This document shows, one piece after another, positions 5,803-58,615 of a stretch of DNA of 64,000 bases. The stretch is from Acidobacteriota bacterium (lineage in GTDB: Bacteria > Acidobacteriota > Vicinamibacteria > Vicinamibacterales > 2-12-FULL-66-21). The first letter of the stretch is position 1, and every line of letters starts with the position of its first letter. The stretch is taken from NCBI GenBank assembly GCA_016184105.1, contig JACPDI010000014.1:1-64000 (forward strand), written 5' to 3'. A program made the translations under genes and the position numbers. Below the pieces are notes generated by a model. The model saw only the letters and a list, made by a program, of their open reading frames with translations, was not told where the DNA came from and ran no database searches.

Positions 5803-7269
5803 ATGGAGGAGAACGGTCGGGTGGTCATCATGAAGTTCGGCGGCACCTCCGTGGCGGACGCGGAAGCCATCGCGCGCGTCGTCCGGCACGTGATGGCGCG
5901 GGCCGGCCGGCATTCGTCGAACGCGCAGCCCGTCGTCGTCGTCTCGGCGCTGGCCGGCGTCACCGACCGGCTGCTCGCGCTCGCCACCGCGGCCGAGCAG
6001 GCGGACGCGCAGGCGCTGCGCGCGGGCGTCGAGGCGCTGCGGGCGCGTCATCTGCAGGTCGCGGCGGAGGTGGCGCCGAAGCCGATCGCCGATCTGGCGA
6101 CCGCGATCGACGCGGAATTCGCGGCGATCGGCGCGCTCCTCGACACCGCGGCCGCCGCGCGTCACGCCTCGCCGGCGGTCGTCGACGCCGTCGCGGGAAT
6201 CGGCGAGCTGCTCAGCAGCCGGATCGTCCACGCGGCGCTGGCCCGCGCGGGCGCGCCCGCCGCGTGGGTCGATGCGCGGCGCGTCATCGTGACCGACGAC
6301 CACTTCACGGCGGCGATCCCGCTGGTGGCGGACACGGAAACCGCCATCGCGCGCGAGATCCGTCCCCTGCTCGCCGCCGGGCAGATGCCGGTCGTCGGCG
6401 GCTATATTGCGGCCACGCGCGACGGCATCCCGACCACGCTCGGGCGCGGCGGGTCGGACTACTCCGCGGCTCTCCTCGGCGCGGGGTTGGACGCGTGCGA
6501 GATCCAGATCTGGACGGACGTCGACGGCATGATGACCACGGATCCCCGCATGGTCTCCGGTGCGCGCGTCGTCTCGCAGCTCTCGTTCGGGGAAGCGTCC
6601 GCGCTGGCGCACTTCGGCGCGAAGGTGCTGCATCCCGGCACGATCCTGCCGGCGGTCGCCAAAGGCATCCCGGTGAGGATCCTCAACAGCCGGCGCTTCG
6701 ACGGGCGCGGCACCGAGATCGCGAGCGTCGCGTCGGGGGGCAGCAACGTCGCCGCCATCGCGTGCAAGCGCCGCGTCACGCTGGTCAACTTCACCTCCAC
6801 GCGCGCGTTGATGGTCTGGGGCTTCCTGCGGCGGGTGTTCGAGGCCTTCGAGCGCCATCGGACGCCGGTGGACCTGCTGGCCATGTCGGAAGCCGGCGTG
6901 TCGGTCGTCATCGATGACGACCGGCGTCTCGAGGCCATCGTCCAGGGCCTGGCGGATATCGCCGTCGCGCACGTCGAGCGCGCAATGGCGATAGTCTGTG
7001 TGGTCGGCGATGGTCTGCGTGAAGAGCCGCGGCTGGCGGAACGCATGATGGGAGCGCTCGACCGGTTCCAGGTGTGGATGGTCTCGCAGACCGCGTCGCA
7101 GCGCAGCCTCGCGGTGGTCCTCCGGGATACCGACGCGGCCGCGGCGACCTCGCGGCTGCACACCGAGTTCTTCGGGGCCAGGGGACCTGAAGAGCCGCTG
7201 CGTCATTCGAGGGCCGCGGACACCGCCGCCCGGGCGGTGCGCGGTCCGGTCCGCGAGATCAGGCCGTGA
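5803..7269 (+). CDS. lysC: Aspartate kinase, monofunctional
   Basis: Phosphorylates L-aspartate, the committing step of lysine, threonine and methionine synthesis. The kinase domain starts MKFGGTSVADAEAIARVV and contains the substrate/ATP motifs GGYIAATRDGIPTTLGRGGSDYSAA. Two C-terminal ACT repeats (from about residue 320: VTLVNFTSTRALMVWGFLRRVF and VDLLAMSEAGVSVVIDD) match E. coli LysC-type allosteric domains, so end-product inhibition, most likely by lysine, is expected. I chose ATG 5803, which has GGGAG six bases upstream; GTG 5797 and ATG 5830 are alternatives. There is no homoserine dehydrogenase domain. First gene of a five-gene operon with 4-bp overlaps, controlled by the leader upstream. 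Confidence 0.94.
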   Translation: MEENGRVVIMKFGGTSVADAEAIARVVRHVMARAGRHSSNAQPVVVVSALAGVTDRLLALATAAEQADAQALRAGVEALRARHLQVAAEVAPKPIADLATAIDAEFAAIGALLDTAAAARHASPAVVDAVAGIGELLSSRIVHAALARAGAPAAWVDARRVIVTDDHFTAAIPLVADTETAIAREIRPLLAAGQMPVVGGYIAATRDGIPTTLGRGGSDYSAALLGAGLDACEIQIWTDVDGMMTTDPRMVSGARVVSQLSFGEASALAHFGAKVLHPGTILPAVAKGIPVRILNSRRFDGRGTEIASVASGGSNVAAIACKRRVTLVNFTSTRALMVWGFLRRVFEAFERHRTPVDLLAMSEAGVSVVIDDDRRLEAIVQGLADIAVAHVERAMAIVCVVGDGLREEPRLAERMMGALDRFQVWMVSQTASQRSLAVVLRDTDAAAATSRLHTEFFGARGPEEPLRHSRAADTAARAVRGPVREIRP

Positions 7270-7967
7270 GCGTCCCGCTGCTGCTGATCGGGCACGGGCG
7301 CATGGGACGCCAGGTCGAGGCGCTCTGCGGCGAGTTCGGCATGCACGTGGCGGGCGTCGTGACCCACGCGTCGGCGGACCATCCCGAGCGCTGGCCCGCC
7401 GCGGATCTGGCCATCGATTTTTCCCGTGCCGAGGCCGTGCCGGTGAATCTGCCGCGGCTCGCGGCGCGCGGCACCAGCGTCGCGATCGGCACGACGGGCT
7501 GGCAGGATCATGAAGCCGCTCTGCGCGCCGAGGCGGAGCGCCATGGCATCGGCGTCGTGTCCGCCTCGAACTTCGCGCTGGGCGTGAACCTGTTCCTCGT
7601 GCTGGCAGAACGGGCCGCAGAGCTGTTCGCTGCCCATCCGGGCTTTGGCGCCTGGATTCACGAGCAGCATCACGCCGCCAAGCGGGATGCTCCATCGGGA
7701 ACGGCGCTCGCCATCGAGCGCACCCTCCGGCGTTCGGGCTACGCGCACCGAATCGATGTGGCATCCACCCGGGCGGGAGAAATGCCCGGCGCGCACACGC
7801 TGGGCTTCGATGCGGCCTCGGAGACGATCACCCTGACGCACACCGCGCGCGACCGCGCGGCGTTCGCCCGCGGCGCGCTCGCCGCCGCCGCCTGGCTGCG
7901 CGGGCGCCGCGGCTGGTTCGGCATGAAAGACGTCCTCGGCGTTCAGCAGCAACAGGAGCAGCGATGA
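7266..7967 (+). CDS. dapB: 4-hydroxy-tetrahydrodipicolinate reductase
   Basis: Reduces the dapA product to tetrahydrodipicolinate with NAD(P)H. At 233 aa it is shorter than the E. coli enzyme (273 aa). The nucleotide-binding start is a relaxed PLLLIGHGRMGRQVE, followed by the family motifs AIDFSRAEAV, AIGTTGW, SASNFALGVNLF and the catalytic/substrate loop EQHHAAKRDAPSGTAL. GTG start within a GTGA overlap with lysC; the stop overlaps dapA. The fingerprint is GxGRMG, so cofactor preference cannot be stated. Confidence 0.93.
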   Translation: MSVPLLLIGHGRMGRQVEALCGEFGMHVAGVVTHASADHPERWPAADLAIDFSRAEAVPVNLPRLAARGTSVAIGTTGWQDHEAALRAEAERHGIGVVSASNFALGVNLFLVLAERAAELFAAHPGFGAWIHEQHHAAKRDAPSGTALAIERTLRRSGYAHRIDVASTRAGEMPGAHTLGFDAASETITLTHTARDRAAFARGALAAAAWLRGRRGWFGMKDVLGVQQQQEQR

Positions 7968-44085: not shown

Positions 44086-44168
44086 TTGCTGCCAGTGTTG
44101 GGCGGCACTATAATCAGACCATTAGACCATGTCAAGCCTATTGGTCTTGTGATATGGTGGTCATACCA
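44086..44168. promoter_or_regulatory. Overlapping divergent promoters with FCD-regulator operator sites
   Basis: Rightward: TTGCTG (44086-44091), 17 bp, TATAAT (44109-44114). Leftward: TTGACA (44135-44130), 17 bp, TATAGT (44112-44107). The two -10 boxes overlap. The leftward spacer contains TGGTCT twice as a direct repeat. TGGTCATACCA at 44158-44168, immediately before the regulator's ATG, is an exact TGGT-N3-ACCA palindrome, the operator form used by PdhR/LldR-type FCD regulators; another TGGTCT half-site lies at 44142-44147. Autoregulation together with control of both arms is inferred. Confidence 0.72.
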
Positions 44169-44894
44169 ATGTATAGGACAGTCCAGCAGCCATCCAGGCT
44201 GTATGAACAGATCGTCGAGCAAATCGAGGCGTCGGTCGTCGGCGGGTCGCTGAAGCCGGGCGACCAGCTTCCGCCGGAGCGGGAGCTGGCGGAGCGGTTC
44301 GGCGTCAGCCGGACCGCCGTGCGCGAGGCGATCAAGACGCTGCGCGAGAAGGGGCTCGTCGAAGCCTTCCCCGGCCGCGGTACGTTTATTACCAACCAGA
44401 CCACGCAGAACATGCGCGGGTCGCTCGCGCGCATCGCGCGCACGGCGCAGGACGAGGGGCTCACCCATCTCGTGGAAGTCCGCGAGATTCTCGAGCCCGA
44501 GATCGCCGCGCGTGCCGCCGCCCGCCGCCGGCGGGACGCCGACCTGACGGCGATGCGAGAGGCGGTGAGCGCCATGGACGCCGCGCTCGATGACGCCGAC
44601 GCCTTCGTCGAGGGGGACCTCGACTTCCACCTCGCGCTCGCCGAGGCGTCCGCCAATCCGATCTTCCTGACCCTGATCGACTCGATCGTGGGACTGCTGC
44701 GCGAGCAGCGCAGCCGCATCTCGTTCGTGCCGGGCGGTGCGGAGCGGGGACAGTTTCACCACAAGCGCATTCTCGCGGCGGTCGAGGCGGGGGACGCCGA
44801 CGCGGCCCGAGACGCGATGCGCGATCACATGAAGCAGGTTCGCGAGGACTCGGAGGCAGGCGCGCGGATCCAGGCGGAAACGACGCAGCCCTGA
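44169..44894 (+). CDS. FCD-family GntR regulator of the catabolic island
   Basis: A 241-aa regulator, MYRTVQQPSRLYEQIVEQIE at the N-terminus. Winged HTH: GSLKPGDQLPPERELAERFGVSRTAVREAIKTLREKGLVEAFPGRGTFI. The FCD domain holds the family metal/ligand-site residues: EVREILEPEIAARAA, the Asp-x3-His of DLDFHLALAEAS, and FHHKRILAAVEAGDADAARDAMRDHM. ATG 44169 abuts the operator palindrome; ATG 44154 is an alternative but would start within it. FCD regulators usually respond to a carboxylate intermediate, fitting the dicarboxylate-type transporter and 2-oxoacid dehydrogenase genes downstream. Confidence 0.9.
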   Translation: MYRTVQQPSRLYEQIVEQIEASVVGGSLKPGDQLPPERELAERFGVSRTAVREAIKTLREKGLVEAFPGRGTFITNQTTQNMRGSLARIARTAQDEGLTHLVEVREILEPEIAARAAARRRRDADLTAMREAVSAMDAALDDADAFVEGDLDFHLALAEASANPIFLTLIDSIVGLLREQRSRISFVPGGAERGQFHHKRILAAVEAGDADAARDAMRDHMKQVREDSEAGARIQAETTQP

Positions 44895-44913: not shown

Positions 44914-45795
44914 ATGGCAAATCTCGGCTTTGTAGGTCTGGGCACGATGGGCGGCCAGATGGTCAAGCGGCTGCTCGACCACGGGCACGTGGTCACCGGC
45001 TACAACCGCACGCGCTCGAAGGCCGGCTGGCTGATCGACGCGGGGATGAAGTGGGCTGACTCCCCGCGCGAGGCCGCGCAGGCCGGGGACGTGATTTTCA
45101 GCATGGTGACGGACACCAGGGCGCTGAAAGCCATCACCGACGGGCCCGACGGCATCCTGTCGGCGCTCGGGCCGGGCAAGACCTACATCGATATCAGCAC
45201 CGTCAGCCCGGCGGTCAGCCGCGAGGTGGCGGCCCGGGTCGCAGAGACCGGCGCGGTCATGCTCGACGCGCCCGTGTCGGGCAGCGTCATCACGCTGCAG
45301 GAGGGCAAGCTGTCGCTGATGGTGGGCGGGCCGACGGACGCGTTCGACCGCGTGAAGCCGATCCTGCAGGACATCGGCCCCAAGGTGACGCACGTCGGCG
45401 ACAACGGCCTGGCCGTCTGCATGAAGATCGCCGTCAACCTGAGTCTTGCGGTCCAGATGCTCGCGTTCAGCGAAGCCGTGCTGCTCGCCGAGAAGAGCGG
45501 CATCCCGCGCGCGACCGCGGTCGACGTCCTGACCAACAGCGCGATCGCCTCACCGATGGTGAAGTACCGCGGCCCGTTCGTGCTCGCCCTGCCGCCGGAA
45601 GCCTGGTTCAACTGCGACATGATGCAGAAGGATCTGAACCTCGCGATCGAGATGGGGCAGCGTCTGGGCGTGCCGCTGCCCACCACCGCCGTGAGCAACG
45701 CGTTTCTCTCCGCCGCGCGCGGGATGGGGCTCAGGGCCGAGGACTTCGCGGTGATGTTCGACGTGCTGGCGTCGATGTCCGGGGTGTCCCGATGA
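44914..45795 (+). CDS. 3-hydroxyisobutyrate-dehydrogenase-family oxidoreductase
   Basis: A 293-aa NAD(P)-dependent beta-hydroxyacid dehydrogenase. The N-terminal Rossmann fingerprint is NLGFVGLGTMGGQMVKRLLDHGHVVTGYNRT, the substrate loop is DAPVSGSVITLQEGKLSLMVGG and the catalytic lysine region is GLAVCMKIAVNLSL. KDLNLAIEMGQRLGVPLPTTA is the C-terminal interdomain helix. It could oxidise a 3-hydroxy acid to a semialdehyde, or reduce one, which would link it to the aldehyde dehydrogenase five genes on. The stop overlaps the E1alpha start by 4 bp. First catalytic gene after the regulator. Confidence 0.88.
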   Translation: MANLGFVGLGTMGGQMVKRLLDHGHVVTGYNRTRSKAGWLIDAGMKWADSPREAAQAGDVIFSMVTDTRALKAITDGPDGILSALGPGKTYIDISTVSPAVSREVAARVAETGAVMLDAPVSGSVITLQEGKLSLMVGGPTDAFDRVKPILQDIGPKVTHVGDNGLAVCMKIAVNLSLAVQMLAFSEAVLLAEKSGIPRATAVDVLTNSAIASPMVKYRGPFVLALPPEAWFNCDMMQKDLNLAIEMGQRLGVPLPTTAVSNAFLSAARGMGLRAEDFAVMFDVLASMSGVSR

Positions 45796-46790
45796 GCACG
45801 GTCGTCCGGAAGGCGGGCGTCGAGCCGGCGGTGACCGCGGCCCGCTGGCTGGAGATGTACGCGCAGATGGTCCAGATCCGCGCGTTCGAGGAGAAGGTCA
45901 ACGACCTCTACACGAGCGCGATCATGCCCGGGCTCGCGCATCTCTACACCGGGCAGGAAGCGGTCGCGGTGGGCGTCTGCCAGGCCCTGCGCCGCGACGA
46001 CTACGTGACCAGCACGCACCGCGGCCACGGCCACTGCCTGGCCAAGGGGGCCTCGCCGGATCGGATGTTCGCGGAGCTGCTCGGCAAGGAAGCCGGGTAC
46101 TGCGCGGGCAAGGGGGGCTCGATGCACATCGCCGACCCCGACACCGGCAACCTCGGCGCCAACGCGATCGTCGGCGGCAGCACCGGCATCGCGACCGGCG
46201 CGGCGTTCAGCGCGCGCTGGCTGAAGACCGGCCGCGTCTCCGTCTGTTTCTTCGGCGAGGGGGCGCTCGGCCAGGGCGTGCTGTACGAAGTGATGAACAT
46301 CGCGCAGCTCTGGAGCCTGCCGGTCATCTACGTCTGCGAGAACAACCAGTACAACGAGTACACGCATTTCACCGAGACGACCGCGGGGGACATCCTCGCG
46401 CGCGCCGCCGCGTTCGGCCTGGCGCGCGAGCGCGTCGACGGGCAGGAGGTCGCCGCGGTGTTCGCCGCCGCCTCACGGCTCGTCGAGCGGGCGCGGCAGG
46501 GGGCGGGCCCCGGCTTCCTGCTCTGCGAGACGTACCGGTATCACGGCCACCACGTCGGCGACATCAGCCGCTCGTACTATCGCAGCAAGGAGGAGGAACA
46601 GGACTGGGCCGCCAACCGCGATCCGATCGCGCGTTTCGGCGACTGGCTGCGCGGCCAGGGGCTGGCCGACGCGGCCGCGCTCGGCGAACTGCGCGCGCGC
46701 GTCACCGCCGAGATCGACGCCGCGGCACAGTTCGCGCTGAACGCGCCGTACCCCGATCCCTCGCAGGTGGAACGCCATGTCTACGCGTGA
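45792..46790 (+). CDS. 2-oxoacid dehydrogenase E1 component, alpha subunit
   Basis: A 332-aa thiamine-diphosphate subunit of a pyruvate/acetoin/branched-chain-type complex. TSTHRGHGHCLAKG contains the phosphorylation-loop-like histidines, GKGGSMHIADPDTGNLGANAIVGG is the family core, and FGEGALGQGVLYEVMNIAQLWSLPVIYVCENN is the TPP/Mg motif. CETYRYHGHHVGDISRSYYRSKEE marks it as PdhA/AcoA-like. It overlaps E1beta by 14 bp. No E3 subunit is in the window, so dihydrolipoamide dehydrogenase must be borrowed from elsewhere. Confidence 0.9.
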   Translation: MSTVVRKAGVEPAVTAARWLEMYAQMVQIRAFEEKVNDLYTSAIMPGLAHLYTGQEAVAVGVCQALRRDDYVTSTHRGHGHCLAKGASPDRMFAELLGKEAGYCAGKGGSMHIADPDTGNLGANAIVGGSTGIATGAAFSARWLKTGRVSVCFFGEGALGQGVLYEVMNIAQLWSLPVIYVCENNQYNEYTHFTETTAGDILARAAAFGLARERVDGQEVAAVFAAASRLVERARQGAGPGFLLCETYRYHGHHVGDISRSYYRSKEEEQDWAANRDPIARFGDWLRGQGLADAAALGELRARVTAEIDAAAQFALNAPYPDPSQVERHVYA

Positions 46791-47784
46791 GGCGGCCGGC
46801 GGCGCGCGCGAGCTGACGTTTGCCGCGGCGATCCGCGAGGCGCTCGCCGAGGAAATGCGGCGCGATGATCGCGTGGTCATTCTCGGCGAGGACGTCGCGG
46901 AGGCCGGCACCCCCTTCAAGGTGCTGTCCGGCCTTGCCGAGGAATTCGGCACGAGCCGCGTCATCGACACGCCGATCTCCGAAGCCGGGTTCACGGGGAT
47001 TGGCGTCGGCGCCGCGATGACCGGCATGCGCCCGTTCATCGACATCATGTTCGGCGACTTTCTGACGCTCACCATGGACCAGATGGTGAACCAGGCGGCC
47101 AAGATCCACTACATGTCCGGCGGCAGGTGGAAGGTCCCCATGGTGCTGCGGACGACGCTCGGCGCGACGCGCCGCTCGGCCGCGCAGCACTCCCAGTCGC
47201 TGCACGCGTGGTACAGCCATATTCCGGGCCTCAAGGTGGTGCTGCCCTCGACCCCGTACGACGCCAAGGGCCTTCTCAAGGCCGCCATCCGCGACGACAA
47301 CCCGGTCGTCTTCTTCGAAGACAAGATGATGTACAAGCTCTCGGGGCCGGTGCCGAACGAGGACTACACGATCCCGCTCGGCGTCGCCGACATCAAGCGC
47401 ACCGGCACCGACATCACCCTGATTGCGACGAGCAGCATGGTGCAGGTGGCGCTGGCCGCCGCGCAGCGCCTCGACCAGGCGGGCATCAGCGCCGAGGTCG
47501 TGGATCCCCGGACGACGCTGCCGCTCGACCGGGCGACGATCGTCGAGTCGGTCCGGAAGACGTCGCGCGCGATCGTCATCGACGAGGGGTACGAGCAGTG
47601 CGGCATCACGGCGGAGATCGCCTCGGTCATCGCCGACGAAGCGTTCTATCACCTGGACGCGCCGGTGAAGCGGATGGGCGCGATGAACGTGCCGGTGCCG
47701 TTCTCGCCGCCGCTCGAGGATGTGACGGTCCCCACGCCGCAGACGGTGTTTGACCAGGCCCGCGCCCTGTGCGGCAAGGCCTGA
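46777..47784 (+). CDS. 2-oxoacid dehydrogenase E1 component, beta subunit
   Basis: A 335-aa transketolase-like subunit. The TPP pyrimidine-binding half begins LTFAAAIREALAEEMRRDDRVVILGEDVAEAGTPF with its catalytic Glu; SRVIDTPISEAGFTGIGVGAAMTGMRPFIDIMFGDF and the C-terminal VVDPRTTLPLDRATIVESVRKTSRAIVIDEGY are classical PdhB/AcoB blocks. It pairs with the upstream alpha subunit as an alpha2-beta2 decarboxylase. The M24-fold gene is inserted between this gene and E2, an unusual break in an E1-E2 operon. Confidence 0.9.
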   Translation: MSTREAAGGARELTFAAAIREALAEEMRRDDRVVILGEDVAEAGTPFKVLSGLAEEFGTSRVIDTPISEAGFTGIGVGAAMTGMRPFIDIMFGDFLTLTMDQMVNQAAKIHYMSGGRWKVPMVLRTTLGATRRSAAQHSQSLHAWYSHIPGLKVVLPSTPYDAKGLLKAAIRDDNPVVFFEDKMMYKLSGPVPNEDYTIPLGVADIKRTGTDITLIATSSMVQVALAAAQRLDQAGISAEVVDPRTTLPLDRATIVESVRKTSRAIVIDEGYEQCGITAEIASVIADEAFYHLDAPVKRMGAMNVPVPFSPPLEDVTVPTPQTVFDQARALCGKA

Positions 47785-47797
47785 GGAACGAGGAGAC

Positions 47798-49138
47798 ATG
47801 GCGCTCAAGACCTACGGCACGATGGCGGTGGACTGGGAGCAGCGCGTCGATTTCGACCGGCTCCGCCGCGAACGGCTGGCGCGCGCGCGCGCCGAGATGG
47901 ACAGGACGGCGCTGGGCTCGCTGCTCTGCTTCGACATGAACAACGTGCGGTACATCACCGCGACGCACATCGGCACGTGGGCGCAGGACAAGGCGAACCG
48001 CTTCACGCTGTTGCCCCGCGGCCACGAACCGATCCTCTGGGACTTCGGGTCGGCGGCGCGGCACCACCAGCTCCACTGCCCGTGGCTCGGCGAGCGCTCG
48101 CGCCCGGGAATCTCGCTGCTGCGCGGCGCGATGTCCCCCGAGATGGGACGCGCCGAGGACGTCGCGCGCAAGATCCGGATCGAGCTGGAGTCGCGCGGCC
48201 TGCACAAAGAGCCGGTCGGCATCGACATCATCGAGCCGCCGGTGCTCTTCGCGCTGCAGAAGGAAGGGCTCACCGTCGTGGACGGCCAGCAGGTCCTGTC
48301 CGACGCGCGCGTGATCAAGACGCAGGACGAGATCACGCTGCTGAACATGGCGGCGATGATGGTCGACGCGGCGTACGACGAACTGTACCGCGCGATGAAA
48401 CCCGGGATGCGCGAGAACGAGGCGGTCGGCCTCGTCTCCAAGGTCCTGTACGACCTCGGATCGGAGTACGTCGAGGCCGTGAACGCGATCTCCGGCGAGC
48501 GCTGCAACCCGCATCCGCACGTGTTCTCGGATCGCGTGCTGCGTCCGGGCGACCCCGTGTACTACGACATCCTGCACTCGTACATGGGCTATCGCACGTG
48601 CTACTACCGCTGCTTCTCCGTGGGATTCGGATCGCGCGCGATGGTGGACGCCTACAAGCGGTGCCGCGATTACCTCGACGCCGCCATCGAGCTGATCCGC
48701 CCCGGCCGCACCACCGCCGAGGTGGCCGCGGTCTGGCCGCGCGCGCAGGATTTCGGGTTCGCCAGCGAGGAGGCCGCCTTCGCGCTGCAGTACGGCCACG
48801 GCGTCGGCCTGGCCATCTGGGAGAAGCCCGTCATCAGCCGGCTCGTGTCGCTCGAACATCCGTACGAGTTGAAGCCGGGGATGGTCTTCGCGCTCGAGAC
48901 ATTCTGGCCGTCGACCGACGGCTGGAGCGCCGCCCGCATCGAGGAAGAAATCGTCGTGACCGAAGCGGGGCACGAGGTGATCACGCGCTTCCCCGCCGAG
49001 AAGCTGCTCGTGGCCGGCGCGCACTACGTCACGGTTGACGGGCCGCTGCCCGCCACGCGCGAGGTCGAGGTGGCACCGAGCGCGGACGTGAAGGCGTTGA
49101 TTGACGCGGGCGCGAGGACGGAACGCGTGGGGGTCTGA
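47798..49138 (+). CDS. M24-fold (pita-bread) enzyme with a substituted metal ligand
   Basis: A 446-aa protein of the Xaa-Pro peptidase/creatinase/DddP superfamily. The N-terminal creatinase-like domain spans about residues 20-190 (SLLCFDMNNVRYITATHIG). In the C-terminal domain the expected five metal ligands fall at Asp257 (VYYDILHSYMGY), residue 268, His334 (YGHGVGLAIWEKP), Glu367 (FALETFW) and Glu382 (RIEEEIVV). Position 268, eleven residues after Asp257 where aspartate is normal, is Cys (RTCYYRCF). Ordinary dimetal peptidase chemistry is therefore doubtful; a lyase or hydrolase on a small substrate is more likely. ATG 47798 has GAGGAG upstream. Confidence 0.82.
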   Translation: MALKTYGTMAVDWEQRVDFDRLRRERLARARAEMDRTALGSLLCFDMNNVRYITATHIGTWAQDKANRFTLLPRGHEPILWDFGSAARHHQLHCPWLGERSRPGISLLRGAMSPEMGRAEDVARKIRIELESRGLHKEPVGIDIIEPPVLFALQKEGLTVVDGQQVLSDARVIKTQDEITLLNMAAMMVDAAYDELYRAMKPGMRENEAVGLVSKVLYDLGSEYVEAVNAISGERCNPHPHVFSDRVLRPGDPVYYDILHSYMGYRTCYYRCFSVGFGSRAMVDAYKRCRDYLDAAIELIRPGRTTAEVAAVWPRAQDFGFASEEAAFALQYGHGVGLAIWEKPVISRLVSLEHPYELKPGMVFALETFWPSTDGWSAARIEEEIVVTEAGHEVITRFPAEKLLVAGAHYVTVDGPLPATREVEVAPSADVKALIDAGARTERVGV

Positions 49139-49142
49139 GCGA

Positions 49143-50294
49143 ATGGCCGTACACGTCGTGATGCCTGCCCTCGAGATGGCGCAGGAAACGGGCAAGCTCG
49201 TCGCGTGGCGGAAGCAGGAAGGCGAGTCCGTCCGCAAAGGCGAGCTGCTGATGGAAGTCGAAACCGACAAGGCCGTCGTCGAGATCGAGGCGTCGGCGGA
49301 CGGCGTGCTCGCCGGCGTTCGCGCCCGCGAAGGGGACGTCGTCGCCGTGGGCCAGACGATCGCCTGGATCGTCGCGCCGGGCGAGCAGCCACCCGCCGAG
49401 ACCCAGCCGGCCCGGACGGGACGCGAGACCGTCCACCATCAGGCGGCGGACATGCCACCGCCCTCGCGCGCGGCGGCGGACGCAGGCGCGCGGCCGTTGA
49501 TGTCACCCAAGGCACGCCGGCTGGCGGCCGAGCGCGGCGTCGCGGTGGAGGCAGGCTCCGGACCCGGGGGCGCCGTCCTCGCGGCGGACCTCGCGGGATC
49601 GGCCGCGGCATCGGCGTCGGCCGGGGCGCTGCCCGCGACGTGGCGCGTGATGGCGGAGCGCATGGCCGCGTCGTGGTCCACCGTGCCGCACTTCTTCGTC
49701 GCCCGCGATGTCGATGCGGGTTCGCTCGCGGCCCTGCGCGCGCGCCTCAACACGACCGCCGGCGCGCCCCGCGAGATCACCGTCACCGATCTGCTCGTGG
49801 CGCTCGTCGCGCGGGCGCTCCGGAGGCATCCGGGCATCAACGCGAGCTGGATGGACGGCGCCGTCCAGGCACACGCGCAGGTCAACATCGGTGTCGCGAT
49901 TGGCGTTGACAACGGCGTGGTCGCCCCGGTCATCCGTGACGCCGACCGCCTGGACGTTGCCGCCCTCGCCGAGCGCCGCGGCCAGCTCGTCGATCGCGCG
50001 CGCGCCGGCCGCCTGCAGCCGTCCGATCTCACCGGCGGAACCTTCACCATCAGCAATCTGGGCATGTACGAGGTCGATGCCTTCAGCGCGATCGTCAACG
50101 CGCCGCAGGCCGCGATCCTCGCGGTCGGGCGGATCGCCGACCGCGTGGTCGCGCGGGAGGGCCGTCCCGCCGTGCGCCCCATGATGAGCGTCACGCTCTC
50201 CTCCGATCATCGCGTGATCGACGGCGTCCGCGCAGCGGCGTTCCTCGCCGACCTCGCGCGCCTGATCGAAGACGCAGAGGGGTCGCTGTCATGA
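49143..50294 (+). CDS. 2-oxoacid dehydrogenase E2 component (dihydrolipoamide acyltransferase)
   Basis: A 383-aa transacylase. One lipoyl domain (residues 1-80) carries the lipoylated lysine in VETDKAVVEIEAS. A Pro/Ala-rich linker leads to a peripheral-subunit-binding domain (MSPKARRLAAERGVAVEAGSGPGGAVLAADL). The catalytic domain ends with the acyltransferase motif SSDHRVIDGVRAAAFL, and TFTISNLGMYEVDAFSAIVN is the CoA-binding core. It hands the acyl group from E1 to CoA. Start ATG 49143, 4 bp after the M24 gene; overlaps the aldehyde dehydrogenase start by 4 bp. Confidence 0.9.
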   Translation: MAVHVVMPALEMAQETGKLVAWRKQEGESVRKGELLMEVETDKAVVEIEASADGVLAGVRAREGDVVAVGQTIAWIVAPGEQPPAETQPARTGRETVHHQAADMPPPSRAAADAGARPLMSPKARRLAAERGVAVEAGSGPGGAVLAADLAGSAAASASAGALPATWRVMAERMAASWSTVPHFFVARDVDAGSLAALRARLNTTAGAPREITVTDLLVALVARALRRHPGINASWMDGAVQAHAQVNIGVAIGVDNGVVAPVIRDADRLDVAALAERRGQLVDRARAGRLQPSDLTGGTFTISNLGMYEVDAFSAIVNAPQAAILAVGRIADRVVAREGRPAVRPMMSVTLSSDHRVIDGVRAAAFLADLARLIEDAEGSLS

Positions 50295-51784
50295 GTCGCC
50301 CCGATCGGCTGCGCGGCGACAGCCGCCGGCCGGCCGCCGCAAGCCTCGACCGTCCGGCGCTGGGCGAGTTCCACTGTCTGATCGCCGGCCGTCGCGTCAC
50401 GACGGGACAGCTCTCGCACGTGCGCAGCCCCTACGACGACACGCTCGTCGCGGTGACGCACCGCGCGGGACCGCGCGAGATCGAGCAGGCGATCCAGGGC
50501 GCCGCCGAGGCGTTCCCGATCACGCGGCGCCTGCCCTCCTGGCAGCGGTCGCAGGTCCTCGAGAGCGTCAGCGCCGGGATCGCCTCGCGCGCCGAGGAGC
50601 TGGCGCGCGTCCTGGCCCTCGAGGCGGGCAAGCCGATGAAGGCCGCCCGTCTCGAGGTCGCACGCGCGGCGTTCACCTTCAAGGTGGCGTCCGAGGAGGC
50701 GCGGCGGATCTACGGCGAGATCGTCCCGCTCGACTGGCTGCCGGGCAGCGAACGGCGCGAGGCGCACGTGCGGCGCGTGCCCCTCGGGCCCGTGGCGGGC
50801 ATCACCCCCTTCAATTTCCCGTTGAACCTGGTCGCGCACAAGGTGGCGCCCGCCGTCGCGGCGGGAGATCCCGTCATCATCCGGCCCGCGAGCCAGACGC
50901 CGGTCTCCTCCCTGCTGCTGGCCGACCTGATCCTCGAGGCGGGCTGGCCCGCCGGAGCGCTCAGCGTCGTCCCGAGCAGCACCGCCGACGCCGCGCCGCT
51001 CGTGGAGGACGACCGCATCACGCTGCTGTCGTTCACGGGCAGCCCCGCCGTCGGGTGGGAGTTGAAGCGCCGCGCCGGGCGCAAGCGCGTGACCCTCGAG
51101 CTCGGTGGCAACGCCGCCGTCATTGTCCACAGCGACGCGGACCTCGCCTACGCCGCCGAGCGCATCGCGTGGGGCGGCTTCTCGTACGCCGGGCAGTCGT
51201 GCATCTCGGTCCAGCGCGTCTTCGTCCATGCGCCGGCGTACGAGCGTTTCCGCGAGCTGTTTCTCGGGCGCGTCAGGGCGTTGAAGGCGGGCGACCCGCT
51301 CGCCGAAGCGACCGACGTCGGCCCGCTCATCGACCGCACCGCCGCCCAACGCGTGCGGGCCTGGATCGACGAGGCGCGTGGTGAAGGCGCGCGCGTGCTC
51401 GCGGGGGGAACGCTTCAGGGGTCGGTGCTCGCGCCCACGGTGCTCGAGGACGTGCGGCCGGAGATGCGCGTGGCCTGCCAGGAAGTGTTCGCGCCGCTCG
51501 TCGGCCTCGTGCGCTACGACGAGGTGGCGGCGGCGATTGCCTCGGCCAACGCGAGCGACTTCGGGCTGCAGGCGGGCGTGTTCACGCACGACGAGCGGAT
51601 TATCACCGCCGCGATCGAAGGCATCGACGCCGGCGGCGTGATGGTGAACGACGTCTCCACGTTCCGCATCGACCACATGCCCTACGGCGGACTGAAGCTC
51701 TCCGGGTTCGGCCGGGAGGGCGTGCGCTACGCCATCGAAGAAATGACCGAGATGAAGCTCGTGACCTACAACCACCGGATGTAG
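50291..51784 (+). CDS. NAD(P)-dependent aldehyde dehydrogenase
   Basis: A 497-aa ALDH-superfamily enzyme oxidising an aldehyde to its acid. GITPFNFPLNLVAHKVAPA is the cofactor-binding loop, FTGSPAVGWELKRRAG the Rossmann glycine motif, Glu270 (LELGGNAAV) the general base and Cys304 (GQSCISVQRVF) the nucleophile. The overall pattern is closest to the lactaldehyde/glyceraldehyde-3-phosphate-type group. The 35-residue N-terminus before GEFHCLIAGRRV is longer than usual. It probably acts on an aldehyde generated by the operon's dehydrogenase or lyase, upstream of the 2-oxoacid complex. Confidence 0.9.
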   Translation: MSRPDRLRGDSRRPAAASLDRPALGEFHCLIAGRRVTTGQLSHVRSPYDDTLVAVTHRAGPREIEQAIQGAAEAFPITRRLPSWQRSQVLESVSAGIASRAEELARVLALEAGKPMKAARLEVARAAFTFKVASEEARRIYGEIVPLDWLPGSERREAHVRRVPLGPVAGITPFNFPLNLVAHKVAPAVAAGDPVIIRPASQTPVSSLLLADLILEAGWPAGALSVVPSSTADAAPLVEDDRITLLSFTGSPAVGWELKRRAGRKRVTLELGGNAAVIVHSDADLAYAAERIAWGGFSYAGQSCISVQRVFVHAPAYERFRELFLGRVRALKAGDPLAEATDVGPLIDRTAAQRVRAWIDEARGEGARVLAGGTLQGSVLAPTVLEDVRPEMRVACQEVFAPLVGLVRYDEVAAAIASANASDFGLQAGVFTHDERIITAAIEGIDAGGVMVNDVSTFRIDHMPYGGLKLSGFGREGVRYAIEEMTEMKLVTYNHRM

Positions 51785-51801: not shown

Positions 51802-53148
51802 GTGACACAGGCGGCCCGAAAGAAACCGCTCTACCGTCAGCTCTGGGTGCACGTGCTGATCGGCATGACGCTTGGCGTGTTGCTCGGACACTTTGCCCCG
51901 GCCACCGGCGCCGCGATGAAGCCGCTCGGCGACGCCTTCATCAAGCTGATCAAGATGATCATCGCGCCGATCATCTTCGTCTCGGTGGTCGCCGGCCTCT
52001 GCAAGATGTCGAACATGAAGGAGGTCGGCCGCATCGGCGTGCGCGCCGCAGTCGCCTTCGAGATCGTGTCCACCGTCGCGATGATCGTCGGGCTCATCGT
52101 CGGCCTCCTGGCGCGCCCCGGCGCGGGTTTCAACGCGGATCCCGCCTCGCTCGATGCGGGAGCGGTGTCGGCGTACGCCGGCCGGTCGAGCGCGCCCGTT
52201 GGCACCGTCGACTTCTTCCTCGGGATCATCCCCGAGACCGTCGTCGGCGCGTTCGCCACGGGGTACATCCTGCAGGTGCTGTTCTTCTCGATCCTCTTCG
52301 GGCTGGCGCTGCTCCGTCTCGGGGAGAAGGGGCGCCCGCTGGTGCATCTCATCGAGCAGCTGTCGTCCGCGTTTTTCGCGGCGCTCGCGCTCATCATGAA
52401 CCTCGCGCCCATCGGCACGTTCGGAGCGATGGCGTTCGCGATCGGCAGGTACGGCATCGGCTCGCTCGTCCCGATGTTCAAGGTGGTGGCGGCGGTCTAT
52501 CTCACCTGCTTCTTCTTCGTCATCGTCTTCATGGGGCTCCTCGCCTGGGTCGTGGGCTTCTCCATCTGGAAGTACCTCGCCTACATCAAGGAGGAGATCC
52601 TCCTCGTGCTCGCGACCTCCACGTCAGAAGTCGCGCTGCCGCGCCTCATGAACAAGCTCGAACGCGCGGGCTGCAAGCAGAGCGTCGTGGGCCTGGTCGT
52701 GCCCACGGGTTACTCGTTCAACCAGGACGGCTCCGCGATCTACCAGACGATCTCCGTGATGTTCATCGCGCAGGCGATGAACATCCACCTGACCTGGGGG
52801 GAGATTCTCACGTTCCTCACGGTGCTGCTCTTCAGCTCGAAGGGAGCCGCCGGCGTCTCCGGCTCCGCGTTCGTGGTCCTCGCGGCCACGCTCGCGTCGG
52901 TCGGCACGCTGCCGGTCGCCGGCATGGCGCTGCTGCTCGGCATCGAGCGGTTCATGTCGATGGCGCGCGGGACCACGAACATGATCTGCAACGGCGCGGT
53001 GACGATCTTCGTCGCGTGGTGGGACAAGGCGCTCGACCTCGCGGAGCTGCGGCGCGCGCTCAGCGGGGGGGCCGCGTGGCCCGGCGCGGCGGCGGAGGCG
53101 GCGGACGTCCGCCCGGCGGCGGCGCGTGCCGAGGTGGAGCGCACGTGA
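51802..53148 (+). CDS. dctA: Dicarboxylate/amino-acid:cation symporter, DctA type
   Basis: A 448-aa inner-membrane DAACS-family carrier with about eight spans and two re-entrant loops. Signatures: LWVHVLIGMTLGVLLGHFAP, FIKLIKMIIAPIIFVSVVAGL, the hairpin TSTSEVALPRLMNKLERAGC and VPTGYSFNQDGSAIYQTISVMFIAQ, and the C-terminal SSKGAAGVSGSAFVVLAATL and RGTTNMICNGAVTIFVAWWDKAL. Substrate-binding residues fit C4-dicarboxylates, although related carriers take other small carboxylates. The C-terminus is an Ala/Arg-rich tail. GTG start; the stop overlaps the substrate-binding protein gene. Confidence 0.9.
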   Translation: MTQAARKKPLYRQLWVHVLIGMTLGVLLGHFAPATGAAMKPLGDAFIKLIKMIIAPIIFVSVVAGLCKMSNMKEVGRIGVRAAVAFEIVSTVAMIVGLIVGLLARPGAGFNADPASLDAGAVSAYAGRSSAPVGTVDFFLGIIPETVVGAFATGYILQVLFFSILFGLALLRLGEKGRPLVHLIEQLSSAFFAALALIMNLAPIGTFGAMAFAIGRYGIGSLVPMFKVVAAVYLTCFFFVIVFMGLLAWVVGFSIWKYLAYIKEEILLVLATSTSEVALPRLMNKLERAGCKQSVVGLVVPTGYSFNQDGSAIYQTISVMFIAQAMNIHLTWGEILTFLTVLLFSSKGAAGVSGSAFVVLAATLASVGTLPVAGMALLLGIERFMSMARGTTNMICNGAVTIFVAWWDKALDLAELRRALSGGAAWPGAAAEAADVRPAAARAEVERT

Positions 53149-54134
53149 GGCGGCGCGCCTGGTGCCTGCTCGTCGCGTGCGCGGCGCTGGCCGGGGCACG
53201 GCCGGCGGCGCAGGCGCCTGCCGCGCGGCGGCTCAACGTCGTCGCGTTCTCGAGCGTGCCGACCTTTCCGCTGCGCGTCGCCGAGGCGCGCGGCCTGTTC
53301 GCCGCCCGCGGCCTCGCGGTGCACGTCGAGATCACGCCGAACTCGCCGGCGCTTCGCGACGGCCTGGCGGCAGGCAGGTACGACATCGCGCACGCCGCCG
53401 TCGACAACGCGATCGCGATGGTCGAGACCGCGGGCACGGACGTCGTCATCGTGCTCGGCGGCGACGACTCGATGAACGAGGTCATCGTCCAGCCCGGGAT
53501 CCGATCGATCGCCGACCTCAAGGGGCGCAGCGTCCTCGTGGATGCGCCGAACACCGCCTACGCGCTGCAGTTGAGGAAGATCCTGCGCGCCGCGGGGGTG
53601 CGCGAGGGGGACTACGAGCTGAAGGCGATCGGCGGGACGCCGCAGCGGATGAAGGCGATGCTCGCCGAAAGCACGAACGCCGCGTCGATGCTGAATCCGC
53701 CGTTTTCGATCCAGGCGGTGCGCGGCGGGCTCCGCTCGCTGGGGACCGCGGCCAGCCTGCTCGGCGCGTACCAGGGCATGGGCGCGTTCGTCCGCCGCGA
53801 CTGGGGGCGCGCGAACCGGCAGACGCTGGTCGATTACCTGTCGGCGTTCGTCGAGGCCCAGCGGTGGCTCGTCGCGCCGGAGCACAAGACCGAAGCCGTC
53901 GACCTGATGGCGCGTGCGCTGCAGCTCGATCGCGATGTCGCCGCGGAGACCTACGCGCGTGGCGTTGCCGCGCTGGCGCCGGACGCGCGGATTGACCTCG
54001 CAGGCCTTCGCAGCGTCCTGGAGCTGCGGGCGGAGATCGAAGGGCAATGGGGCGGGCGCGCGCCCGCGCCGGAGCGGTATGTCGATTCGACGTATCACGA
54101 CGCGGCGCTCGCGGCGTTGAAGGCCGGCCGCTGA
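53145..54134 (+). CDS. TauA/NMT1-like periplasmic substrate-binding protein
   Basis: A 329-aa exported protein; signal peptide VRRRAWCLLVACAALAGARPAAQ. The two-lobed binding fold is marked by LNVVAFSSVPTFPLRVAEARGLFAARGLAVHVE, DIAHAAVDNAIAMVE and the IADLKGRSVLVDAPNTAYALQLRKIL hinge. No ABC permease or ATPase genes accompany it, so it either serves a distant transporter or acts as a binding or sensory protein beside DctA. GTG 53145 overlaps the dctA stop; the open frame upstream is a dctA shadow. A remnant of a close relative lies at 37632-37805. Confidence 0.85.
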   Translation: MRRRAWCLLVACAALAGARPAAQAPAARRLNVVAFSSVPTFPLRVAEARGLFAARGLAVHVEITPNSPALRDGLAAGRYDIAHAAVDNAIAMVETAGTDVVIVLGGDDSMNEVIVQPGIRSIADLKGRSVLVDAPNTAYALQLRKILRAAGVREGDYELKAIGGTPQRMKAMLAESTNAASMLNPPFSIQAVRGGLRSLGTAASLLGAYQGMGAFVRRDWGRANRQTLVDYLSAFVEAQRWLVAPEHKTEAVDLMARALQLDRDVAAETYARGVAALAPDARIDLAGLRSVLELRAEIEGQWGGRAPAPERYVDSTYHDAALAALKAGR

Positions 54135-55179: not shown

Positions 55180-56856
55180 ATGTCGATGTCGCGCACGGAT
55201 CCGGATTCATCGGAAGCACAGGGGCCACACGACAGTGAGGAGCGGAGCGGCATCAGCCGCCGCGCGCTCCTGACGGGCGCCGCGGGCGTGGCGATCGGCA
55301 CGCTCGCGCACGCCGTCAGCGCGCGCGCGCAGGTGACCGGCCTCACACCGGGGGGCGGCACCGTGCCGTTCCGCCTGCCGAAGGGCGCGCTCCCCTTCCT
55401 CGATCGAAAGCAGTACCTCCACAACATGGAGGTCCACGCGCACCTGCCAGGCGTGCGGTTCACGACCGGCGAGCCGCTCGTCGTGATGTACGCAAGAGGC
55501 TCGCAGCGGCTCCTGCCGGGGGGCGCCGGGTTCCTCGATGTCAGCGACGGCCGCAAGCCGGTCCTGATCGAGACGGGCAAGGTTCGCACCGGCGGCGCCG
55601 TGGCGTACAACTCGAATCTCAAGAAGTGGATCATGGTGGTGTCGGCGGGGCGGCCGCTCTCCGGGGCGAATCCCCAGTACCCGCTCGGCCAGCACCACCC
55701 GGAATATCGCGACAAGATCCTCAACTGGGAAGGTCATCGCGGCATCCGGACCTACGACGTCACCAACCCGGCCAGGCCGGTCCTGCTGCAGGAATTCAGC
55801 ACGGGGAAGCGCGGCGGCGGTACCCACCACAACTTCTACGACGGCGGCAAGTACGCCTACCTCGACGCGGGCTGGGACGACGAGCTGCGGATGGAGAACG
55901 CGCAGCGTCCATCGAGCAACGGCATCATGATTGTCGACATGACCGACCCGGCCAACATCAAGGAAGTGTCCCGGTGGTGGGTGCCGGGGCAGCGCGTCGG
56001 CGAAGAGGAAGAATACAAGAAGTACTGGTTCGCCGGCGATCAGTCGTCATGGACCGGCAACCACGGCGCGCTGACCGTCCCCAAGCGCGTCGAGGACGGC
56101 GGGAGGTACGGCTACGGCGGCTTCGGGCACTTCGGACTGTTCGTGTTCGACCTCACCGACGTCCGGAACCCGAAGCCGATCGCGCGCTTCCAGGCGCCGT
56201 TCGAGTCGATGGGCGGCATTCCGTATCACACGGTCTATCCGCTCGCCGCCAACATGCGCCATCCGCGCCTGCAGAACCTGCTCATCGGCGTGCCTGAAAC
56301 GGTGCAGCCGGACTGCCGCGAACCGTACAAGCCGGTGCAGGTCATCGACGTCAACGACCCGAAGAACCCGCGTCTGGTCGGCATCTTCCCGCGCCCGGTC
56401 GCACCGAAGGATGCCCCGTACGCGGACTTCTGCCAGGCGCGCGGCCGATTCGGCTGGCACAACACGCACGCCTGGGCGGCGCCGGGCATCGAGCGTCCGG
56501 AAGTCCTCGGCGTGACCGCCTTCGCGGCGGGCATCCGGCTGTTCGATCTGTCCGACCCGGCGCAGCCGAAGGAAACCGCGTGGTTCGTGCCGGCGCGCGA
56601 CGGCGAGATCGAGGATTACGAGACCTGGTTCCGCGGCACGGCGGAGAGCGTGTACATCGAATGGGACCGCAACCTGATCTGGCTCGGCACGCACGAGGGC
56701 ACGTACTGTCTCTCGTCGCCGGCGCTCGGCAAGCCGATCTTCGAGCCGAGACCGGTCGAGCGCTGGTCGCAGGCGCACGTGAACGCCGGCTGGGACGATC
56801 ACACGTCCAAGAGCGTGTACTTCGGCCGCGGACTGCGTGAACGGCTCGGGCTGTAG
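55180..56856 (+). CDS. Tat-exported LVIVD-like repeat protein (beta-propeller), copy 1
   Basis: A 558-aa protein with a twin-arginine signal (SGISRRALLTGAAGVAIGTLAHAVSARA) around residues 22-50, implying export folded, perhaps with a cofactor. The body has repeated IRTYDVTNPARPVLL, IMIVDMTDPANIKEVSRWW, LFVFDLTDVRNPKPIARF, VQVIDVNDPKNPRLVG and IRLFDLSDPAQPKETAWF units, the pattern of LVIVD-type propeller blades. Dense conserved His/Trp/Asp residues (HHNFYDGGKYAYLDAGWDDELRMEN, GHFGLFVFD) suggest an active or metal site. No EC activity can be assigned. Start ATG 55180, 3 bp after the hydrolase. Confidence 0.72.
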   Translation: MSMSRTDPDSSEAQGPHDSEERSGISRRALLTGAAGVAIGTLAHAVSARAQVTGLTPGGGTVPFRLPKGALPFLDRKQYLHNMEVHAHLPGVRFTTGEPLVVMYARGSQRLLPGGAGFLDVSDGRKPVLIETGKVRTGGAVAYNSNLKKWIMVVSAGRPLSGANPQYPLGQHHPEYRDKILNWEGHRGIRTYDVTNPARPVLLQEFSTGKRGGGTHHNFYDGGKYAYLDAGWDDELRMENAQRPSSNGIMIVDMTDPANIKEVSRWWVPGQRVGEEEEYKKYWFAGDQSSWTGNHGALTVPKRVEDGGRYGYGGFGHFGLFVFDLTDVRNPKPIARFQAPFESMGGIPYHTVYPLAANMRHPRLQNLLIGVPETVQPDCREPYKPVQVIDVNDPKNPRLVGIFPRPVAPKDAPYADFCQARGRFGWHNTHAWAAPGIERPEVLGVTAFAAGIRLFDLSDPAQPKETAWFVPARDGEIEDYETWFRGTAESVYIEWDRNLIWLGTHEGTYCLSSPALGKPIFEPRPVERWSQAHVNAGWDDHTSKSVYFGRGLRERLGL

Positions 56857-56998: not shown

Positions 56999-58615
56999 AT
57001 GAGCATCAGTCGCAGAACGATGATCAAGGGCGTGGCCGGGGCGGCGCTGGGCGCTGTGGCCGGCGCCGTGTCCGCGCGCGCGCAGGTCAGCGGCGTCATG
57101 CCCGGCGGAGGCACCGTGCCGTTCCGCCTGCCGATGGGCGCGCTCCCCTATCTGGATCGCAACCAGTACGTACACAACATGGATGTTCATGCGTTCGTGC
57201 CCGGCCCGGAAACCGCCGGGGGCGAGCCGCTGATGAACATGTGGGCGAAGGGACGACAGCGCTTGCTCCCGGCCAGCGGCGGCTGGCTGGACATCACCGA
57301 CCCGGTCAAGCCGGTCGAGGTGAAGGCGGGATCGATCCGCCTGCGGAAGATCTGCGTCGCGTACAACACGGCCCTGCGAAAGTGGATCGCCGTCGAGTCG
57401 GTGGAACCGCCCATGCCGCGGCACACGCCGAAGTACCCGCGCGGCCAGCACCACCGCGAATGGGTCGAGCAGACGACGCTCGCCTATAAGGGGCTGCGGG
57501 GGTTCCGGACCTACGACATTTCAGATCCGGCGCGGCCCGTCCTGCTGCAGGAGTTCGATACGGGACAGACCGGTTTCGGCACCCACACGAACTTCTACGA
57601 CGGCGGGAAGTACGCGTTCCTCGACTGCGGCTGGGACGACCAGCTTCGCATGGAGAACCCGCAGCGCCCGTCGAGCAACGGCATCATGATCGTCGACATG
57701 GCCGATCCGGCCGCGGTCAGGGAGATGTCGCGCTGGTGGGTGCCGGGACAGCGCGTCGGCGAGGAAGACGAATACAAGAAATACTGGTTCGCCGGCGACC
57801 AGTCCTCGTGGACCGGCGTGCACGGCGCGCCCACCGTGCCGAAGCGCATCGAGGATGGCGGCAGGTACGGCTACGGCGGATTCGGCCACTTCGGCATGTT
57901 CGTGTTCGACTTCAGCGACGTGCGAAATCCGAAGCCCGCCGGCCGCCTGATGTACGACTTCGAGACCCTCGGCGGCATTCCGTATCACACCGTTGCGCCG
58001 GTCTTCGCCGACGCGGCCCACCCGCAGCTGCAGGATCTCGTCATCGGCATGCCGGAAACCATCTACGGCGATTGCCGCGAGCCGTTCAAGACGCCGCTCA
58101 TCATCAGCGTCAAGGATCCCGCGCACCCGCGCGTGGTCGGACGGTTCCCGCGGCCGATGCCGCCGAAGGAAGCCCCGTACGCCGACTTCTGCCAGGCGCG
58201 CGGGCGATTCGGCACGCACAACATCCAGGCCTGGGTCGCACCCGGGACCGCTCGCCCCAACGTCGTCGTGATCACCTGGTTCAACGCCGGCATCCGCATC
58301 CACGACATCTCCGATCCCGCCCGGCCGAAGGAGCTTGCGTGGTTCGTTCCACGGCGCACCGGGGAGATGGACGACTACATGAGTTGGTACCGCGGGACGT
58401 CGGAGAACGTGTTCGTCGAGTGGGATCGCAACCTGATCTGGATCGGCACGCACGAGGGGACGTACTGCCTCTCGAGCCCCGCGCTCGGCAAGCCGATCCT
58501 CGAACCGCGCCGGATCGAGCGGTGGACGGTGCCGCACGCCAACAGGGGCTGGGACGATCAGACGCCGACCAGCGTGTACTTCGGCCGAAGCCGACGCCAG
58601 TTCATCGGCAATTGA
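56999..58615 (+). CDS. Tat-exported LVIVD-like repeat protein (beta-propeller), copy 2
   Basis: A 538-aa tandem paralogue of the preceding gene. Tat signal MSISRRTMIKGVAGAALGAVAGAVSARAQ. The same blade units recur: FRTYDISDPARPVLLQEF, IMIVDMADPAAVREMSRWW, MFVFDFSDVRNPKPAGRL, LIISVKDPAHPRVVGRF, IRIHDISDPARPKELAWF. The block KKYWFAGDQSSWTG is identical in both copies, and GGRYGYGGFGHFG is conserved. I chose ATG 56999, which has TGGAGGG upstream. Divergence is greatest in the N-terminal third, suggesting two related substrates or a heteromer. Function unknown. Confidence 0.72.
   Translation: MSISRRTMIKGVAGAALGAVAGAVSARAQVSGVMPGGGTVPFRLPMGALPYLDRNQYVHNMDVHAFVPGPETAGGEPLMNMWAKGRQRLLPASGGWLDITDPVKPVEVKAGSIRLRKICVAYNTALRKWIAVESVEPPMPRHTPKYPRGQHHREWVEQTTLAYKGLRGFRTYDISDPARPVLLQEFDTGQTGFGTHTNFYDGGKYAFLDCGWDDQLRMENPQRPSSNGIMIVDMADPAAVREMSRWWVPGQRVGEEDEYKKYWFAGDQSSWTGVHGAPTVPKRIEDGGRYGYGGFGHFGMFVFDFSDVRNPKPAGRLMYDFETLGGIPYHTVAPVFADAAHPQLQDLVIGMPETIYGDCREPFKTPLIISVKDPAHPRVVGRFPRPMPPKEAPYADFCQARGRFGTHNIQAWVAPGTARPNVVVITWFNAGIRIHDISDPARPKELAWFVPRRTGEMDDYMSWYRGTSENVFVEWDRNLIWIGTHEGTYCLSSPALGKPILEPRRIERWTVPHANRGWDDQTPTSVYFGRSRRQFIGN

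Follow-up and report, generated by a model that had tools for sequence, protein, structure and literature searches.

A gene lying inside a dehydrogenase operon of the acidobacterial window analysed here (64,000 nucleotides of contig JACPDI010000014.1) specifies an M24-fold protein, hereafter M24-Cys, in which a cysteine, Cys268, occupies the place of an aspartate metal ligand. This cysteine is a trait of a whole clade, neither a sequence error nor an isolated substitution, and the clade is an ancient and widespread branch of the M24 superfamily, apparently uncharacterised. We somewhat favour the view that the window protein is a non-peptidase hydrolase or lyase of small molecules, which employs the Cys268 thiolate in an altered metal site and feeds a dedicated complex.

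Active-site residues and the Cys268 clade

The open reading frame (47798–49138, + strand) is intact and translates to 446 amino acids plus a stop. The ribosome-binding site GAGGAACGAGGAGACATG fits the chosen start codon, and the stretch upstream of the ATG, GAGGAACGAGGAGAC, resembles such a site. At 121.6 bits against PF00557 [Peptidase_M24; Pfam gathering cut-off 23] the product belongs to the M24 or pita-bread superfamily. Translation bore out the initial annotation, which had listed Asp257, Cys268, His334, Glu367 and Glu382 and had noted that Cys268 follows Asp257 by eleven residues, as in methionine aminopeptidase (MetAP). The ligands of the dinuclear site of E. coli MetAP are D97, D108, H171, E204 and E235 (PMC2238726); the D97–D108 spacing is the same, Cys268 (codon TGC, 48599–48601) falls on the D108 position and His239 on that of H79. 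Instead of the five ligands D-D-H-E-E of a dinuclear M24 metallopeptidase, all clade members present D-C-H-E-E. An AlphaFold model (39 close orthologues) has a mean pLDDT of 60.8, with residues 236–278 and most of 323–351 below 50, which is too low to place Cys268.

From the 336 relatives that a scan of a genome collection gave, we retained the 80 best loci, which are all acidobacterial and 80–90% identical. Cys268 is found in each of these 80 and in eight plasmid loci of Rhodococcus, Streptomyces, Paenarthrobacter and Rhodobacterales; the actinobacterial and rhodobacterial homologues are 52–64% identical. Five genomes of the same order as the window carry copies 81–90% identical, all with Cys. 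Four haloarchaeal homologues (34–37% identity) have it as well, in the form GYRSCYYR. The initial annotation had raised the possibilities that homologues in the same operon retain Asp at this position, or that Cys268 is a sequencing error. Asp was never encountered in the former, and since Cys occurs in 88 of 88 homologous loci and in 4/4 haloarchaeal ones, from independent genomes, neither error nor chance accounts for it.

The context of the cysteine is GYR[TS]CYYR throughout, corresponding to GYxxDxxR in other M24 members. Across 21 diverse Cys proteins no cysteine other than Cys268 is invariant; Arg266, Tyr269 and Tyr270 are likewise invariant in the clade, being absent or rare in Asp relatives, and Glu367 is followed by Thr where Asp homologues usually have Pro. 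His239, Asp257, His334, Glu367 and Glu382 are kept across the clade, so that the D108 position alone is changed. Acidobacterial M24 paralogues at 35–37% identity, which are as distant as the haloarchaeal proteins, have Asp in place of Cys268 and Tyr in place of His239. The Cys proteins form a single clade in a maximum-likelihood tree (97/93 support, 98% of bootstrap trees) on which one Cys/Asp change suffices; long branches are present and the deeper order is unsure. Because Cys268 is invariant and confined to a single clade, with the other four ligands and His239 retained, a non-peptidase reaction on a small molecule is favoured.

A different role for the same residue would be that of catalytic nucleophile or acid-base rather than ligand, in a metal-free or mononuclear site such as those of the creatinase and ectoine-hydrolase branches, perhaps with a covalent thioester or thiohemiaminal intermediate. 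We regard this as unlikely, though by no means negligible: the absolute invariance of Cys268 and the invariant Tyr-Tyr pair that follows, unseen in Asp homologues, would suit a nucleophile, and loss of ligands has precedent in the superfamily, where an ectoine-hydrolase-type protein (L147) and its sister (L144) have lost most of them. The four other metal ligands of M24-Cys are fully conserved, unlike those of that branch. For the same reason the comparison with metal-free M24 members drawn at the outset is of limited reach, 4/5 ligands being kept here.

The DNA pattern for YRTCYYR was found in 11 of 297 acidobacterial genomes. Orthologues (76–84% identity) are held by seven of seven pattern-positive genomes re-searched and by none of eight pattern-negative ones, so the gene is patchily distributed and the motif diagnostic. 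Two scans of viral contigs for more divergent M24-Cys relatives found none, and targeted searches of the openly accessible literature found no paper on the family. The window's own genome encodes a second site-altered M24 protein (L005, contig C27, 1504–2733) with E-E-H-H-G at the ligand positions. The SRVP_15 genome (L109 and L078 contigs) contains a complete operon plus a second M24-Cys copy that has no operon partner within 10 kb.

The operon and its conservation

The operon of the window (Table 1) runs GntR, HIBDH-type, E1 alpha, E1 beta, M24, E2, aldehyde dehydrogenase, DctA, and this order, at least in its core, recurs in relatives. The order E1 alpha, E1 beta, E2 is that of acetoin and 2-oxoacid dehydrogenase operons; the window operon differs from them in the insertion of M24 between E1 beta and E2 and in the addition of HIBDH and DctA. 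The E1 beta gene is an extra copy, the genome's other E1-beta-like genes being at most 47% identical to it. With E1 alpha no pyruvate-dehydrogenase equivalog model reaches its cut-off, and a subfamily model is the only one that E1 beta passes. The E1/E2 complex is a dedicated one, for a 2-oxoacid or an acyloin (acetoin-like) substrate.

Table 1. Location of the M24-Cys gene, its motif and the operon genes in the window
Feature	Position	Strand	Remarks
GntR/FCD regulator	44154..44894	+	PF00392, PF07729; conserved upstream in relatives
3-Hydroxyisobutyrate-dehydrogenase-family NAD(P) enzyme (HIBDH-type)	44914..45795	+	Nearest solved chains 3pef, 3pdu; conserved
Dehydrogenase E1 alpha (thiamine diphosphate)	45792..46790	+	Conserved
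Dehydrogenase E1 beta	46777..47784	+	Directly upstream of M24
M24-fold enzyme, 446 aa	47798..49138	+	Ligand set D257-C268-H334-E367-E382 plus H239
Motif GYRTCYYR, residues 264–271 (diagnostic)	48587..48610	+	Holds Cys268; clade-invariant except Thr/Ser267
E2 acyltransferase, lipoyl and E3-binding domains	49143..50294	+	Directly downstream of M24
Aldehyde dehydrogenase, lactaldehyde/sulfoacetaldehyde type	50291..51784	+	SSADH-type enzyme instead in many relatives
DctA-type dicarboxylate carrier (SDF family)	51802..53148	+	Found in 18/44 full-flank acidobacterial loci

In the 80 best of the 336 relatives, all acidobacterial, the gene next to M24 could be assessed upstream at 72 loci and downstream at 71: E1 beta is the immediate upstream neighbour at 67 of the former (median gap 49 nt), E2 the immediate downstream neighbour at 67 of the latter (median gap 46 nt). 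The 44 of these 80 loci with full flanks include HIBDH in 41, GntR in 36 and DctA in 18, as well as a TonB-dependent receptor (31), a secreted alpha/beta hydrolase (30) and an SSADH-type aldehyde dehydrogenase (20). M24 is the most conserved operon product in each of five near relatives: its identity is 81–90%, and that of the remaining operon genes, with one exception in each, 54–84%.

A similar gene set exists in other phyla, more loosely in haloarchaea. On plasmids of Rhodobacterales, genes for M24, E1 alpha, E1 beta, a lipoyl protein, an SSADH-type enzyme, E2 and sometimes E3 follow one another, in most with HIBDH and SDR genes close by. The Streptomyces plasmid has HIBDH, M24, SSADH-type, E1 and E2, and Paenarthrobacter plasmids have HIBDH and M24, on one of them with fused E1 and E2. 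Near three of the four haloarchaeal copies examined there are E1 alpha/beta and/or SSADH-type genes. Two observations count against the favoured reading, namely that in the window genome a different aldehyde dehydrogenase stands in for the SSADH-type partner and that M24 occurs without E1/E2 in a few acidobacterial loci (e.g. L109, L113) and on the Rhodococcus plasmid.

Its location between E1 beta and E2 might suggest that the protein is a catalytically dead M24 subunit which scaffolds or regulates the E1/E2 complex. A non-catalytic M24 protein, Ebp1, offers a precedent (PMC3888471). We hold this to be very improbable, given the extreme conservation with which the full set of potential ligands and His239 is kept, and given that the gene does not adjoin E1/E2 in haloarchaea and some bacteria.

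Several neighbouring features deserve mention in their own right. Directly 3' of DctA, 53166–54134 specifies what by eye is an NMT1-like periplasmic binding protein, with homologues at 43–47% near the M24 operon in four loci (L059, L102, L111, L121). Further on, 55180–56856 and 56999–58615 encode, one after the other, two similar proteins that have Tat-like signal peptides and that by eye resemble LVIVD-repeat proteins; several acidobacteria (these four loci and L086) have homologues of about 41–43% identity next to the operon. One operon (L036 of genome G007, 6034–7790) contains a tandem duplicate of the HIBDH-type gene. An Edaphobacter locus (L097, 13959–14837) has a bicupin protein after DctA, with related proteins in seven acidobacterial loci, and on the plasmid of Paenarthrobacter sp. 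R1 (L126) the M24 module sits a few kb from the flavin reductase gene sulR, in a transposase-rich sulfonamide-degradation region.

Three links to known pathways were considered and dropped. A role in sulfonamide degradation, raised by Paenarthrobacter plasmids with sad/sul genes, was abandoned because the passages searched in the sulfonamide-degradation papers make no mention of the M24 gene and the acidobacterial operons have no sad/sul genes. The ureidoglycine pathway, raised by the Edaphobacter bicupin next to DctA, was set aside because the bicupin scores 37 bits where the cut-off is 338, a weak likeness to ureidoglycine aminohydrolase. As for a glyoxylate-carboligase pathway, the top scores of the haloarchaeal thiamine-diphosphate genes are of acetolactate-synthase type and under the cut-offs, and the haloarchaeal "oxidoreductase" next to them belongs to the extended SDRs and not to HIBDH.

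Comparison with characterised M24 enzymes

Creatinase, a non-peptidase, has in common with M24-Cys the fold and a two-domain architecture; the match of the window protein to it (PDB 7yto) is only 29 bits. The ectoine hydrolase DoeA/EutD (PDB 6twk) likewise has the M24 fold and a catabolic role, with a small molecule as substrate. M24-Cys nevertheless scores 65.8 bits vs a cut-off of 613 with TIGR02993 (DoeA), and that identity was rejected. The DoeA-like L147 (442 bits with this model) has lost most ligand positions, whereas M24-Cys retains four plus Cys.

The best solved-structure match, nearly full length, is DddP (PDB 4s00, 4b28; E 5e-25), a non-peptidase with a small carboxylate substrate and with most of the same ligands. 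DddP is also the top NCBIfam match [NF043017], at 116.7 bits vs an equivalog cut-off of 600. Its Asp307 and its proposed catalytic residues Tyr366 and Asp377 (PMC4108388) correspond to Cys268, Ala329 and Ile340 of the window protein, and across the Cys clade the latter two positions are Ala/Gly/Thr and Ile/Leu, respectively. M24-Cys differs also in its operon, which includes E1/E2. DddP identity was therefore rejected on the score and on the missing catalytic residues, and a DddP-type lyase of DMSP or some related onium compound, whose C3 product would go to HIBDH and the aldehyde dehydrogenase, strikes us as highly doubtful in spite of its being the closest match in both searches. The parallel with DddP made in the initial annotation holds for fold and rough ancestry; it does not extend to the catalytic candidates, which are replaced in the clade.

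M24-Cys shares with Xaa-Pro dipeptidases (PepQ) and MetAP the site layout D-x(10)-[D/C], H, E, E and the His79 position, and differs in the Cys for the second Asp, in Glu-Thr vs Glu-Pro and in its catabolic operon. The identities were rejected at 67.6 bits vs 630 for archaeal PepQ [NF040821] and 53.1 bits vs 171.35 for type I MetAP [TIGR00500]; the window protein falls short of the cut-off of every curated peptidase equivalog. Public records annotate homologues as "Xaa-Pro peptidase family protein," and fold and Pfam family agree with an ordinary peptidase or dipeptidase of this type which tolerates a Cys ligand and handles a dipeptide within a catabolic operon. Indeed, dipeptide cleavage by a peptidase-type site in which one ligand is altered is conceivable. 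We consider such an enzyme improbable, since Cys in place of Asp is strictly kept clade-wide, Thr follows Glu367, and the operon with its 2-oxoacid dehydrogenase complex is conserved and has no peptide transporter in its core.

Proposed function and significance

The initial annotation had taken the altered site and the operon together to indicate chemistry other than peptide hydrolysis. The conserved operon lends support to this; the chemistry itself is a prediction from sequence. Since the genes of a dedicated thiamine/lipoate dehydrogenase complex share the operon of M24, the enzyme probably degrades a small molecule and not a peptide. The flanking by E1 beta and E2, the top conservation of M24, the recurrence of the module across phyla, the dedicated E1 beta and the failure to reach any peptidase cut-off all favour this reading.

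Under this small-molecule reading M24-Cys would be a cytoplasmic, probably dimeric non-peptidase of the M24/creatinase fold. It would carry out hydrolysis or elimination of a small organic-acid-like substrate, presumably taken up via DctA. The metal site responsible would have Cys268 in place of one carboxylate ligand, beside Asp257, His334, Glu367 and Glu382, with His239 perhaps acting as proton shuttle or substrate contact. The product, directly or via the HIBDH-type dehydrogenase, may pass to the E1/E2 complex, where cleavage or oxidative decarboxylation would yield an acyl-CoA, with E3 possibly common to this complex and the housekeeping enzyme; the aldehyde dehydrogenase might deal with aldehyde or semialdehyde by-products. 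Metal binding by the thiolate, the dimeric state, the non-peptidase activity and the order of the steps are what we infer. More tentatively still, the clade may constitute a cross-domain class with a thiolate-for-carboxylate M24 site and a reaction new to the fold; this reaction would be the committed step in a catabolic pathway, so far undescribed, of soil, marine and haloarchaeal organisms, with a dedicated 2-oxoacid/acyloin dehydrogenase at its end.

All catalytic-type M24 relatives examined have Asp at the D108 position; Cys marks a single clade, which has members in Acidobacteriota, Actinomycetota, Alphaproteobacteria and haloarchaea and is tied to one metabolic module. If the proposed function is correct, several hundred Xaa-Pro peptidase annotations are probably misleading (one scan gave 336 related stretches), and the family would provide a naturally occurring Asp-to-Cys exchange at a metal site that has been studied in depth and would mark an uncharacterised catabolic route in many soil acidobacteria.
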